This document shows positions 10,055 to 17,158 of a stretch of 64,000 nt of DNA, one piece after another. The stretch's first letter is position 1, and each line of letters opens with the position of its first letter. The notes beneath the pieces are model-generated. The model searched no databases, was not told the DNA's origin, and worked only from the letters and a program-made list of their open reading frames with translations. Source of the DNA: Rhodocaloribacter litoris. GTDB taxonomy: Bacteria > Bacteroidota > Rhodothermia > Rhodothermales > ISCAR-4553. Position numbers and translations under genes: made by a program. The DNA lies in contig NZ_CP076718.1 of assembly GCF_011682235.2 (NCBI RefSeq), forward strand, positions 4,123,095-4,187,094, in the 5' to 3' direction.

Positions 10055-10528
10055 TTAGTCGTCGTCGAGGTCGTCGTCGGTGTCGGAAAAGACGTCGTGG
10101 GCGCGGGTGCCGTGACGGTGGGGTTTGTCTTTTCGGGAGCGCATGGCAAGGCCGTCGTCCCGGAAGCGGCGCGGGGCGCGGGGCCGGTCGTCGTCGAGCA
10201 GGCTGCGGCGGAAGCGGGATTCGAGGGCCAGCTCGTCCTCATCCTCCCAGTCCTCGTCGTCGTCTTCCCAGTCTTCTTCGTCGTCCCAGTCTTCTTCGTC
10301 GTCTTCCCAGTCTTCTTCGTCGTCCCAGTCCTCGTCGTCGTCTTCCCAGTCTTCTTCGTCGTCCCAGTCCTCGTCGTCCCAGTCCTCCTCATCGTTGCTG
10401 AGGCGTGCATCGGCCAGGGCCAGCGGGAAGGCGGCGGGGTGTGCCGGAATGCTTTCGAAGGGGAAGGTGAAGAGCCCGGCTACGGGCAGGGACGTACCGG
10501 CGGTACGCGCTTCAAAGAGGCGTTTCAT
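10055..10528 (-). CDS. Highly acidic Asp/Glu/Trp-repeat protein (157 aa)
   Basis: The start is the ATG at 10526-10528, preceded by GGAAAG on the minus strand. The first 45 residues are ordinary and lack a clear signal peptide. Residues 46-99 consist only of Asp, Glu and Trp (46 acidic, 8 Trp) in a 13-residue period, WDDEEDWEDDDED, repeated about three times with flanking partial copies. The tail is basic and polar (RRFRDDGLAMRSRKDKPHRH) and ends again in an acidic run. No family recognised. It is 95 bases upstream of the DHS homologue on the same strand; a role in binding polyamines or metal cations is only a guess. The opposite strand reads as a Ser/Gln repeat, which I consider the shadow. 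Confidence 0.6.
   Translation of the reverse strand: MKRLFEARTAGTSLPVAGLFTFPFESIPAHPAAFPLALADARLSNDEEDWDDEDWDDEEDWEDDDEDWDDEEDWEDDEEDWDDEEDWEDDDEDWEDEDELALESRFRRSLLDDDRPRAPRRFRDDGLAMRSRKDKPHRHGTRAHDVFSDTDDDLDDD
10232..10393 (-). repeat. 39-bp tandem repeats coding for WDDEEDWEDDDED
   Basis: This tract encodes residues 46-99 of the acidic protein. The unit is 39 bp (13 codons), with three near-identical copies and degenerate ends, built from GAN/GAR codons with one TGG every 6-7 codons. Such low-complexity DNA is prone to copy-number change, so length may vary between strains. Confidence 0.75.
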
Positions 10529-13154: not shown

Positions 13155-13178
13155 AAACCCGAAATTCTACCCGACCCA

Positions 13179-13206
13179 TCCAAACGTTCAACGCGAAACG
13201 TGTAAC
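13179..13206 (-). repeat. Heptanucleotide repeat array, 4 units
   Basis: On the minus strand the units are GTTACAC, GTTTCGC, GTTGAAC and GTTTGGA, with GTT recurring exactly every seven bases. It belongs to the same GTTNNNN family as the large array downstream of the S46 peptidase and sits in the short gap just upstream of that gene. Confidence 0.75.
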
Positions 13207-13219
13207 GCGCCCAGGCCCC

Positions 13220-15370
13220 ATGACCCTCTCCCGCAAGCTGCTCGTCCTCCTGCTCCTGACGCCGGCCCTGCATGCTGCCGGCGCTCAGCCCGTGGCCGAC
13301 CCCGATCCGACGAAGGCCGGGCCGTACGACAACGGCAAGATGTGGACGTTCGAGTACCCCCCGCTCGACTACCTGGCCGAGACGTACGACTTCCACCCGG
13401 ACGACGCCTGGTTCGAGCGGGCGCGGATGAGCGCCCTCCGCATCCCCGGCTGCTCGGCCTCGTTCGTCTCCCCCAACGGGCTGGTGGTCACCAACCACCA
13501 CTGCGTGCGCGGGCGGGTCTCGCAGGTGAGCCGACCCGGCGAGAACCTGCTGGACAACGGCTTCATCGCCACCACGCTCGCGGAGGAACGGCCCATCCCC
13601 GGCTACTATGCCGACCAGCTCATCGCCATCGAAGACGTGACGGAAGAGGTCGACGCCGCGCTCGAAGCCGCCCAGACCGACGCCGAGCGGGCCGCCGCCC
13701 GCGAGGAGGTCTTTGCCGCCATCACCGAGCGCCTGAAGGAGGCCCACGGGGGGGACGACATCGAGGTGCAGATCATCCCTCTGTACAACGGCGGCCGCCA
13801 TTCGGCCTACGTTTTCCGTCGCTACCGGGACGTGCGCCTGGTGGCGGCCCCCGAGCTGCAGCTGGGCTTCTTCGGGGGCGAATGGGACAACTTCACGTAC
13901 CCGCGCCACGCGCTCGACTTCGCCTTCCTCCGCATCTACGACGAGGACGGCGAACCCCTCCAGACCGACCACTACTTCACCTGGAGCCGGCGGGGCGTGG
14001 AGGAGGGCAACCTGATCTTTGTCATCGGCAACCCCGGCTCCACGAGCCGCCACGCCACGGTTGCCCAGCTCGAGTTTTTCCGGGACGTGCTGGTGCCCCA
14101 CACCCTCGGCTTCCTCGACCGCCGCCTGGCCGCCTACCGTGCTTTCTTCGAAGAGGACCCCGAGGCGGGCGAGGCCATCGACATTCGCAACACCATTTTC
14201 TCGATCTCGAACAGCCAGAAGGCCTACGCGGGCCGCCTCGACGCGCTCAACGACCCGGTGATCCTGGCCCGCCGTGCCGACGCCGAGCGGCAGTTCCGCC
14301 AGGCCATCGAGGCCGACTCCAGCCTGCGGGCCCGGTATGCCGGCCTGTTCGACGAGATGGAGGCCATCCAGGCGGAGAAGAAGGCCATGGCGGCCGAGTA
14401 CGGCGCGTTCCGGCTGCTGGAGAGCCGCTTCTCCTCGGCGACGATCCGGCGGGCGGTGGCGGCCTACCGCTACCTGACGGCCCGGACCGAAGGCGCCAAC
14501 CCCGAACGGGGGGCGAAGCTGGAGGAGGCCCTGCTGGGGGTGCCCGACCTGCCGGCGGGGCTGGAGCGGCGGCTGCTCGCCGCCCGGCTGGAAGAGTGGC
14601 GGCGGTACCTGGGCGCGGACGACCCGCTCGTGCAGCAGGCCCTGGGCGGCCGGACGCCGGCGGAGGCCGCCGACGCGCTGCTGGCCGCCTCGACGCTCGC
14701 CTCGGCCGAAGCCACCCGGCAGGCCGTCGAGGCGGGCACGCTGTCCATGGACGACCCGGCCCTGGCGCTGGCGGCCCTCCTGGTGCCCCGCTACGAGGCG
14801 TTCGAGCGGGCCTTCAACGGGCTCTCCGCGCGGGAGAACGCCCTGGCCGCCGCCCTCGGGCGCGCCCGCTTCGCCGTCTACGGCACCTCCGTCCCGCCCG
14901 ACGCCACCTTCTCGCCCCGCTTCACCGACGGCATCGTGAAGGGCTACCCGTACAACGGCACCGAGGCCCCGCCGTACACTACCTTCTACGGGATGTACGA
15001 CCTGCACTACGCCCACGGGCCCGGCACCGACTGGGACCTGCCCGCGCGCTGGCTCAACCCGCCCGATGCCTTCAACCGCGCTACCCCGCTCAACTTCGTC
15101 TCCACCGCCGACACCATCGGCGGCAACTCGGGTTCGCCCGCCGTCACGCCCGACCTGGAGATCGTCGGGCTCAACTTCGACCGCAACATCGAAGGGCTCT
15201 CGCGGGACTACATCTACCTGCCCGAGCGCGGCCGCAACATCATGGTGGACGTGCGCGCCATCCGCGAAGCGCTCGACGTGGTCTACGACGCCGACCGCAT
15301 CGTGCTCGAACTGACCACCGGCCACCTGGCCGAAACCGAAGCCGAGGCGGATGCCTTCCTCCGGCAGTGA
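13220..15370 (+). CDS. S46-family dipeptidyl-peptidase (DPP11-like)
   Basis: A 716-residue secreted serine peptidase that removes dipeptides from oligopeptide N-termini in the periplasm. The signal peptide is residues 1-22 (MTLSRKLLVLLLLTPALHAA). The catalytic His region is NHHCVRG (about 92-98) and the catalytic Ser is in TIGGNSGSP near residue 640. S46 enzymes divide by the residue after the conserved FD: here FDRN carries Arg, as in DPP11, which prefers Asp/Glu at P1, while DPP7 has Gly. So acidic specificity is predicted. ATG 13220 is chosen because the signal peptide starts there; ATG 13151 overlaps the preceding stop and would put a non-hydrophobic extension in front. Heptad-repeat arrays lie on both sides. 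Confidence 0.92.
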   Translation: MTLSRKLLVLLLLTPALHAAGAQPVADPDPTKAGPYDNGKMWTFEYPPLDYLAETYDFHPDDAWFERARMSALRIPGCSASFVSPNGLVVTNHHCVRGRVSQVSRPGENLLDNGFIATTLAEERPIPGYYADQLIAIEDVTEEVDAALEAAQTDAERAAAREEVFAAITERLKEAHGGDDIEVQIIPLYNGGRHSAYVFRRYRDVRLVAAPELQLGFFGGEWDNFTYPRHALDFAFLRIYDEDGEPLQTDHYFTWSRRGVEEGNLIFVIGNPGSTSRHATVAQLEFFRDVLVPHTLGFLDRRLAAYRAFFEEDPEAGEAIDIRNTIFSISNSQKAYAGRLDALNDPVILARRADAERQFRQAIEADSSLRARYAGLFDEMEAIQAEKKAMAAEYGAFRLLESRFSSATIRRAVAAYRYLTARTEGANPERGAKLEEALLGVPDLPAGLERRLLAARLEEWRRYLGADDPLVQQALGGRTPAEAADALLAASTLASAEATRQAVEAGTLSMDDPALALAALLVPRYEAFERAFNGLSARENALAAALGRARFAVYGTSVPPDATFSPRFTDGIVKGYPYNGTEAPPYTTFYGMYDLHYAHGPGTDWDLPARWLNPPDAFNRATPLNFVSTADTIGGNSGSPAVTPDLEIVGLNFDRNIEGLSRDYIYLPERGRNIMVDVRAIREALDVVYDADRIVLELTTGHLAETEAEADAFLRQ

Positions 15371-15373
15371 GGC

Positions 15374-15457
15374 GTTTCGGGTTCCACGTTTCAGGTTGAA
15401 CGTTCCACGTTTCAGGTTGAACGTTTCAGGTTTCAGGTTGAATGTTTCACGTTGAGG
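15374..15457 (+). repeat. Heptanucleotide repeat array, 12 units (direct arm)
   Basis: Twelve consecutive 7-base units each begin with GTT: four GTTTCAG, two GTTGAAC, two GTTCCAC and four variants. A 21-base super-unit GTTCCAC-GTTTCAG-GTTGAAC occurs twice in succession (15381-15422). It starts three bases after the peptidase stop codon. Confidence 0.9.
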
Positions 15458-15459
15458 AC

Positions 15460-15522
15460 CATAAACGTGCAACGTGGAACGCACAACGTGCAACGTGGAA
15501 CGCGCAACGCGCAACGTTAAAC
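15460..15522 (-). repeat. Heptanucleotide repeat array, 9 units (inverted arm)
   Basis: Nine consecutive units of the same GTTNNNN family on the opposite strand (GTTGCAC, GTTCCAC and GTTGCGC twice each, plus variants). Only two bases separate it from the direct array, so the pair forms an imperfect inverted repeat of about 150 bases able to fold as a long hairpin. It ends 16 bases before the amidase start. Confidence 0.9.
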
Positions 15523-15538
15523 GTTATCGGATTGCCCC

Positions 15539-17158
15539 ATGAAGCGACGTGACTTCCTGCAGGTGAGCGCCCTCGGCGGCGCCGTGGCCCTCACCGGCCT
15601 GCCCGGCTGTGTTCCGCCCGCAAAGGACGAGCAGGCCGACGCGCCACCCGCCGTTCCCCCCTTCGAGCTGGAGGAAAAGACGATTGCCGAGCTGCAGGAG
15701 GGGATGACCTCCGGCGCCTATACGGCGCGTCGCCTGGCCGAACGCTACCTGGAGCGCATCGAGGCCGTCGACCGGGGTGGGCCGGGGGTGAACGCCATCA
15801 TCGAGGTGAACCCCGACGCGCTTGCTATTGCCGAGGCGCTCGACCGGGAGCGGGCCGAGGGGCGGGTGCGCGGGCCGCTGCACGGCATCCCGGTGGTGCT
15901 CAAGGACAACATCGACACGGCGGACCGGATGCACACCACCGCCGGCTCGCTGGCCCTGGCGGGGTCCATCCCGTCGCAGGATGCCTTCGTGGCGCAGCGG
16001 CTGCGCGAGGCCGGCGCCGTCATCCTGGCGAAAGCCAACCTGAGCGAGTGGGCCAACTTCCGCTCGACGCGCTCGTCGAGCGGGTGGAGTGGGCGCGGCG
16101 GGCAGACGCGCAACCCCTATATCCTCGACCGCAACCCCTGCGGCTCCAGCTCGGGCTCGGCGGCCGCCGTGTCGGCCAACCTGTGCGCCGTGGCCGTGGG
16201 CACCGAGACGGACGGCTCCGTGGTGTGCCCCTCGTCGGCGTGCGGCGTCGTCGGCATCAAGCCGACGCTGGGGCTCGTCAGCCGGTCCGGCATCATTCCC
16301 ATCGCCCACAGCCAGGACACCGCCGGGCCGATGGCCCGCACCGTCACCGACGCGGCCCTGCTGCTGGGCGTCCTCGCCGGCGTCGACCCCCGCGACCCGG
16401 CCACCGAGGGCAGCCAGGCCCACCCGGACTACACCCGCTTCCTCGACCCCGACGGGCTGCGCGGCGCCCGCATCGGGGTGGCGCGCACCTTCTTCGGCTT
16501 CCACGACCGCGTCGACGCCCTCATGGAGGAAGCCCTCGCGGTGATGCGGGACGCCGGCGCGGAACTCATCGACGAGGTCAGCCTCCCGCCCCGGCGCGAG
16601 TACGGGCAGGCCGAGTATGAGGTGCTCCTCTACGAGTTCAAGAACGACCTCAATGCCTACCTGGCCGCGCTTCCGCCGGGCGACGGCCCCCGCACGCTGG
16701 ACGACCTGATCGCCTTCAACGAGGCCCATGCCGAGGAAGAGCTGAAGTACTTCGGCCAGGAGATCTTCCTCGCCGCCCGGGAGAAGGGGCCGCTCACCGA
16801 CCAGGCCTACCTCGACGCGCGGGCACTGTGCCTGCAAAAGACGCGCGAGGAGGGCATCGACCGGGCGTTCCGGGAGCACAACCTGGATGCCCTCGTGGCC
16901 CCCACCGGCGGCCCGGCCTGGCCCATCGACCTGATCAACGGCGACCACTTTGGCGGGGGCAGTTCGTCGCCTGCCGCCGTCTCCGGCTACCCGAACGTCA
17001 CCGTGCCCGCCGGCTACGTTTTCGGCCTGCCGGTAGGCATCTCGTTCTTCGGCACCGCCTACAGTGAGCCTACGCTCCTGCGGCTGGCCTATGCCTTCGA
17101 GCAGGCGACCCGCGTGCGCCAGGCCCCCACATTCCTCCCCACATTGCCGATGACGTGA
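15539..17158 (+). CDS. Exported amidase-signature family lipoprotein
   Basis: A 539-residue amidase of the Ser-cisSer-Lys class, which hydrolyses carboxamides. The catalytic Lys is K122 in VVLKDNIDT, the Gly/Ser loop CGSSSGS is at 201-207 and the nucleophile region GTETDGSV at 221-228. The N-terminus MKRRDFLQVSALGG is a twin-arginine-like signal followed by a lipobox LPGC with Cys24, so the enzyme is probably exported folded and lipid-anchored. Family members include aryl-acylamidases, peptide amidases and GatA-like enzymes; no GatB/C is nearby, so a tRNA role is unlikely. Substrate unknown. It lies downstream of the S46 peptidase but across the large heptad array. Confidence 0.9.
   Translation: MKRRDFLQVSALGGAVALTGLPGCVPPAKDEQADAPPAVPPFELEEKTIAELQEGMTSGAYTARRLAERYLERIEAVDRGGPGVNAIIEVNPDALAIAEALDRERAEGRVRGPLHGIPVVLKDNIDTADRMHTTAGSLALAGSIPSQDAFVAQRLREAGAVILAKANLSEWANFRSTRSSSGWSGRGGQTRNPYILDRNPCGSSSGSAAAVSANLCAVAVGTETDGSVVCPSSACGVVGIKPTLGLVSRSGIIPIAHSQDTAGPMARTVTDAALLLGVLAGVDPRDPATEGSQAHPDYTRFLDPDGLRGARIGVARTFFGFHDRVDALMEEALAVMRDAGAELIDEVSLPPRREYGQAEYEVLLYEFKNDLNAYLAALPPGDGPRTLDDLIAFNEAHAEEELKYFGQEIFLAAREKGPLTDQAYLDARALCLQKTREEGIDRAFREHNLDALVAPTGGPAWPIDLINGDHFGGGSSSPAAVSGYPNVTVPAGYVFGLPVGISFFGTAYSEPTLLRLAYAFEQATRVRQAPTFLPTLPMT

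Follow-up and report, generated by a model that had tools for sequence, protein, structure and literature searches.

What are the tandem GTTNNNN heptads that lie on both sides of a peptidase S46 gene in Rhodocaloribacter litoris, and does this locus stand alone in carrying them? In the window, by which we mean the whole stretch of 64,000 nucleotides that was analysed, the S46 gene (13220–15370, + strand; Pfam PF10459, E 7.3e–177) lies between the arrays and outside the repeat, and is followed by an amidase gene (15539–17158, + strand; Pfam PF01425, E 2e–98). The spacer from the S46 stop codon to the amidase start codon (15371–15538) consists almost entirely of two opposed heptad arms. Its left arm, of 12 units (15374–15457, + strand), begins 3 bp past the stop codon and points away from S46; its right arm, of nine units (15460–15522, – strand), has its outer end 16 bp ahead of the start codon of the amidase gene, from which it points away. 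The two are separated by the dinucleotide AC, and the left one contains a 21-bp super-unit, GTTCCAC-GTTTCAG-GTTGAAC, in two tandem copies (15381–15401 and 15402–15422, + strand). Direct reading of the window thus bears out the 12 + 9 opposed units two bases apart and the duplicated super-unit (15381–15422) of the original prediction. It also bears out the predicted four-unit run upstream, whose strand had been left unstated: GTTACAC GTTTCGC GTTGAAC GTTTGGA stands on the – strand (13179–13206) in the spacer between a B3/4-like gene and the S46 gene (13155–13219), with its outer end 13 bp ahead of the start codon of the S46 gene, and points away from that gene. Elsewhere in the window (10055–10528, – strand) there is a predicted protein in which acidic DEDWDDEE blocks, containing tryptophan, recur.

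Dinucleotide Markov versions of the window never gave a GTT heptad run of more than three units. We also scanned 464 kb, made up of the window and 400 kb of own genome taken without selection, for trinucleotide runs of at least six copies at any period that is not a multiple of 3, with no motif assumed. Only periods 7 and 14 were returned, and every such run was GTT/AAC or the overlapping CGT/ACG. Together these results rule out a chance origin. Across the own genome (G000; 4,502,320 bp, one contig), the six-unit GTT pattern has 74 matches versus 7 for the reversed control and the four-unit pattern 174 versus 38, the number of arrays being smaller since matches overlap inside an array. Six-unit runs occur in 18 of 60 genomes of the order and in 104 of 247 genomes of the phylum. 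Runs of at least 12 units are found in many phyla, although many of these are simple repeats of almost uniform units, whose GTT just reflects the search pattern. The suggestion of a one-off duplication, with the phase absent elsewhere, is therefore ruled out by the pattern across genome and phylum. A literature search for Rhodothermales tandem repeats found no account of them. The commonest units in the own arrays are led by GTTGCAC, GTTGAAC, GTTTCGG and GTTCCAC. A second heptad vocabulary, ATTGCNN, was noticed near gene edges in three spacers (G000:C1 813317–813441, 610672–610905 and 1861345–1861466), also pointing away from the gene.

The arrays follow a rule of placement, which was read against gene calls from a codon-usage script, rather than the official annotation, with predicted gene starts and in regions largely picked for carrying arrays. 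All 48 mapped own arrays of at least four units are intergenic, as are 89 arrays versus 4 coding ones in five relatives. Among own arrays of at least three units the 5' GTT end is nearer the gene than the 3' end in 60 of 69 (60:9, P about 2e–10), and in seven relatives 97 of 118 arrays (97:21, P about 7e–13) point away from the nearest gene edge; the ratio is 60 versus 27 in 117 named loci across many phyla. Most own arrays of at least four units (40/48) begin within 20 bp of a gene edge, starts and stops alike, and 6 of 32 stop-edge arms in G000 begin inside the stop codon region. In convergent spacers the arms beside stop codons show the same polarity with no start codon involved, which rules out start-codon selection as its sole cause.

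Pairing, too, is directly observed, and it belongs to the spacer. When one edge of a spacer carries an arm, so does its opposite edge in 62 of 132 cases, far more often than the opposite edge of the gene does (10 of 140; pooled, P about 3e–14). One count gives partners across the spacer for 24 of 51 arms. A typical array spacer therefore reads gene, GTT> ... <AAC, gene. A cassette bracketing the S46 gene is ruled out, because arms are paired per spacer and not per gene. Array-bearing spacers cluster, 22 of 40 having another no more than 3.5 kb away where about 8% would be expected to, in regions that were partly picked for arrays. Divergent spacers are under-represented (1/40 of array spacers versus 72/442, P 0.012), a scarcity that could reflect function or avoidance of promoters. 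Four array spacers (G000:C1 448990–449316, 1392519–1392717, 1399429–1399631 and 1609101–1609485, the last with two copies) also hold a second dispersed repeat, gtagccgc...ttcacgggtgcgctc...cccgggctaaagcccgcggctac, between or beside the arms. In another relative, G009, post-stop arrays (L236 5986–6130 and L240 4890–5127) can come after an inverted repeat rich in A+T, GCAAACATATAAATC...GATTTATTTGTTTGC, the right half of which merges into the first GTTTGCT unit.

We favour, with a probability of roughly 0.58, the reading that the arrays of the window belong, as one copy, to a genome-wide family of fast-turning, mostly non-adaptive, two-armed, satellite-like spacer inserts. Each insert would pair two tandem runs of opposite orientation, made of short units (7 bp in this case) with a lineage-specific, GTT-based vocabulary, filling the intergenic space, and GTT would read inward from each spacer edge, that is, away from each gene. 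Slipped-strand mispairing, or unequal recombination of repeats that are in phase, would change the length. A step of 7 bp would be acceptable only where it disrupts no reading frame, and the arrays may stay outside genes because 7 breaks the frame. The vocabulary shared within a genome would come from copying between loci, and the hairpin, with any effect on mRNA, would be a by-product of an insert that is probably mostly non-adaptive. Some of the evidence counts against this reading. Slippage alone predicts neither polarity nor convergent pairing, and the two together need something more: a two-ended insert, an extension of ends, or an unrecognised selective rule. The scarcity in divergent spacers speaks against it as well, and so does a relative, G031, whose arms enclose a centre that hardly varies in length (about 29–30 bp), more like a discrete element.

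Comparison of relatives shows how quickly these spacers change. In two sister species (G023 and G013) that are about 93% identical, arrays with closely similar flanks differ by 35 bp (5 × 7) and by 77 bp (11 × 7), the opposite arm being unchanged in the latter case. These whole-heptad changes bear out the idea of an expanding repeat and fit unit-step change by slippage or unequal recombination. Among nine array spacers compared between the two, three have an array in one species only and others have altered units. Substitutions in the core and variable positions (26/133 versus 45/175) do not discriminate, and purifying selection on GTT is unsupported by the sister-species counts, and the constancy of GTT within arrays is partly a consequence of the search pattern. 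Whole spacers are replaced, too. The ribosomal-protein operon of G031 has array spacers measuring 93, 84 and 73 bp, whose counterparts in G010 measure 11, 11 and 27 bp, genes of the two being about 87% identical. Orthologous spacers often carry opposed 7-bp-periodic arms of other vocabularies, which were read by eye as TTGGCTN, RCGARTG and GATTNNN. A motif-free measure agrees, with lag-7 identity, plus lags 14 and 21, prominent in the spacers of seven relatives; it is weaker in the unselected spacers of the own genome (z 5.1, equal to lag 5), and none was seen in a small sample of 3.7 kb of E. coli spacers.

The extra 46–82 bp in spacers that measure 11–27 bp in a relative would also be expected of a mobile repeat, a possibility that the original prediction had raised. 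A non-autonomous element of MITE or REPIN type, with heptad terminal inverted repeats, might insert into spacers and have its arms diversified afterwards by slippage. It would account for the two-ended symmetry of each spacer, the vocabulary shared within each genome, the near-constant centre in G031 (total roughly 63–93 bp) and the weak resemblance that G031 spacers bear to unlinked sites of G010 and G022. However, the MITE-like centre, with a weak motif, is seen in G031 only; the own genome shows no conserved or common interior, the order and number of units differ between arms, single arms are common, and unit length itself shifts between genera. No target-site duplication was seen in G023/G013, and the spacers of the other relatives are too diverged to show one. 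REP and REPIN elements, with their RAYT transposases, resemble the arrays in being intergenic, arranged as inverted pairs and grouped in lineage-specific families, but no fixed palindromic REP core was noticed here and the arms are 7- or 8-bp periodic. We rank the mobile element next after the fast-turning insert, as a tentative alternative.

Opposed arms can fold. For the window spacer the computed z is –4.9 as RNA and –5.8 as DNA, and two-armed spacers fold better on average than array-free ones (mean z –1.7 versus –0.4 in G000; –4.0 versus –1.0 in G009). The strong hairpin that had been suggested is thus there as a physical property, but its arms are not adapted to each other. In both G000 and G031, arms swapped between spacers fold equally well, and in-register complementarity between the arms of one spacer is no better than between spacers, so that the arms pair because they share a vocabulary and the hairpin looks like a by-product. 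The same result rules out, for these two genomes, that one arm is an exact inverted duplicate of the other; arms within one spacer share units somewhat above expectation (p 0.002 in G000). Selection for a regulatory role in cis, as intercistronic hairpins, as unstructured AAC leaders before start codons or as arrays for a heptad-reading protein, would agree with this foldability, with the adjacency of arrays to start and stop codons, with the paucity of divergent spacers and with the translational regulation that MacGregor proposed for TAACTGA repeats (PMC4679880). We nevertheless consider it rather unlikely, given the rapid turnover and replacement between sister species, the lack of co-adaptation between arms in G000 and G031, the variety of gene neighbourhoods and the identical polarity beside stop codons of convergent spacers. 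The suggestion of a protein-binding array found no support.

Two more specific structures were also sought. The canonical G-quadruplex pattern was matched by none of the arrays in the own genome (0/48), in G009 (0/41) or in G031 (0/25), and by neither window spacer; in G020 it was matched by 8 of 25. Canonical quadruplex arrays are therefore ruled out for the own genome, and the quadruplex cannot be a general cause of the layout because no own-genome array fits it. A short GC stem with a U tract, as in an intrinsic terminator, was not found: the sole match in the spacer is weak, on the – strand and inside the right arm, and the 2.6-kb region has three terminator-like matches against a shuffle mean of 1.4.

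The length of the unit is itself subject to change. In G001, a genus of the same family, the S46–amidase gene order is kept and the spacer has no heptads. There are no 7-bp arrays in 109 kb of this genome, but there are 8-bp arrays with diversified units such as GTTAAAAC, GTTTGAAC and GTTGGAAC. These are intergenic in 13 of 13 cases, polarised 12 to 1 and mostly two-armed; arrays of GTTNNNNN units at L339 4079–4154, L340 3042–3128, L341 1813–1938, L342 6243–6332 and L343 9538–9602 have the same polarity and two-armed layout as the 7-bp arrays. The closest relative thus keeps the core and the layout but builds its arrays from 8-bp units. In a period-8 control on 60 genomes the remaining matches were near-uniform repeats or tetranucleotide runs, save for a few mixed-unit matches in G009. 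A dispersed repeat of another kind, cgtcatcccgagcg...cgaagggg...gagggatct, occupies S46-adjacent spacers in G001 and G010 (L176 around 1440; L188 downstream of the S46 gene).

A change from 7 to 8 bp with the core retained would be natural if an enzyme extended both 3' ends at breaks in spacers with GTT-headed repeats, in the manner of a telomere, and the ends were then joined into opposed arms. On both sides the GTT strand would then be the one that grows at its 3' end, arms would share vocabulary and not order, and arrays could begin in the stop codon region, as the 6 of 32 stop-edge arms in G000 do. Against this, no enzyme or template was identified, the centre in G031 is of near-constant length, and the copy-number changes observed are interior to the array; we regard such end addition as very improbable.

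Much of this layout has precedents. In many bacteria, heptamers have been reported to outnumber all other long simple repeats, for which the polymerase footprint and G-quadruplexes were proposed as reasons. Rehm et al. (2015) described heptamer repeats in Xanthomonas, with the unit GGGAATC, and in Nostoc PCC 7120, with the unit GGGGA(C/T)T, linked them to quadruplexes, and found them closer to the 5' ORF whatever its orientation, overlapping stop codons and rare between divergent genes; in Xanthomonas about 90% are intergenic and convergent pairs stand on opposite strands (PMC4692102). Polarity and pairing are thus already on record, and the claim that an inverted layout sets the present arrays apart from known heptamer repeats fails. 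The present arrays have the same layout (an intergenic tandem 7-nt unit, proximity to the 5' ORF, convergent pairs as in Xanthomonas, rarity between divergent genes) and share stop-codon overlap and length variation between relatives. However, the unit of Rehm et al. is one nearly fixed, G-rich and quadruplex-capable sequence, while here GTT is joined to diversified other bases, G-tracts capable of a quadruplex are lacking in the own arrays (0/48), lineages have several vocabularies and the sister genus has 8-bp units.

MacGregor (2015) described TAACTGA direct repeats in marine Beggiatoaceae, Cyanobacteria and some Bacteroidetes (PMC4679880). On the opposite strand TAACTGA amounts to the heptad GTTATCA; the AAC strand is in sense just upstream of starts and one set is reversed after a stop, the same polarity as here, and some related genomes have shorter, repeat-free spacers, also as here (PMC4679880). 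That system has one fixed unit, two-armed spacers are not given as a rule in it, and its repeats are read as sites of a translational regulator (PMC4679880), in which it differs from ours. TAACTGA (= GTTATCA) is absent from the common units of the own arrays; GTTATCA is present in a Parabeggiatoa locus from the same pattern search. The P6b stems of the cyanobacterial trnL intron in Nostoc offer a further likeness, with heptanucleotide classes TDNGATT and NNTGAGT, degenerate 7-nt motifs that pair into a stem-loop, seven-nucleotide indels and whole-region swaps of repeat class, but there it is one locus inside a group I intron and here many spacers (PMC4476775). Mrazek et al. (2007), as cited in later work (PMC4679880, PMC4692102), described a heptanucleotide class of long simple sequence repeats and proposed slippage, and the description as cited there includes neither polarity nor pairing. 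The likeness to the short tandemly repeated repetitive sequences (STRR) of cyanobacteria is one of form only.

The arrays are a rapidly evolving and, in all probability, largely non-functional variant of the heptamer repeats described in Xanthomonas, Nostoc and Beggiatoa. New here are the diversified, non-quadruplex units, the changing vocabularies in orthologous spacers, the exact heptad steps between sister species and the switch from 7 to 8 bp within one family. Here the same polarised two-armed layout is found although the own genome has no array capable of a quadruplex, vocabularies are replaceable and the sister genus has 8-bp units, which speaks against the polymerase footprint and the G-quadruplex alike as general causes. 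The results also suggest that spacers inside core operons, the ribosomal-protein operon included, can be rewritten fast. Sister species about 93% identical that differ by exact 7-bp steps provide a defined system for testing the origin and direction of these repeats. It is a long shot that trans-acting machinery writes the spacers, adding to DNA ends, or to the edges of spacers, short GTT-headed repeats whose length and vocabulary are lineage-specific; if true, it would jointly explain the polarity, the opposed arms, the vocabulary shared within each genome and the switch from 7 to 8 bp, in which core and layout persist, between two genera of one family.
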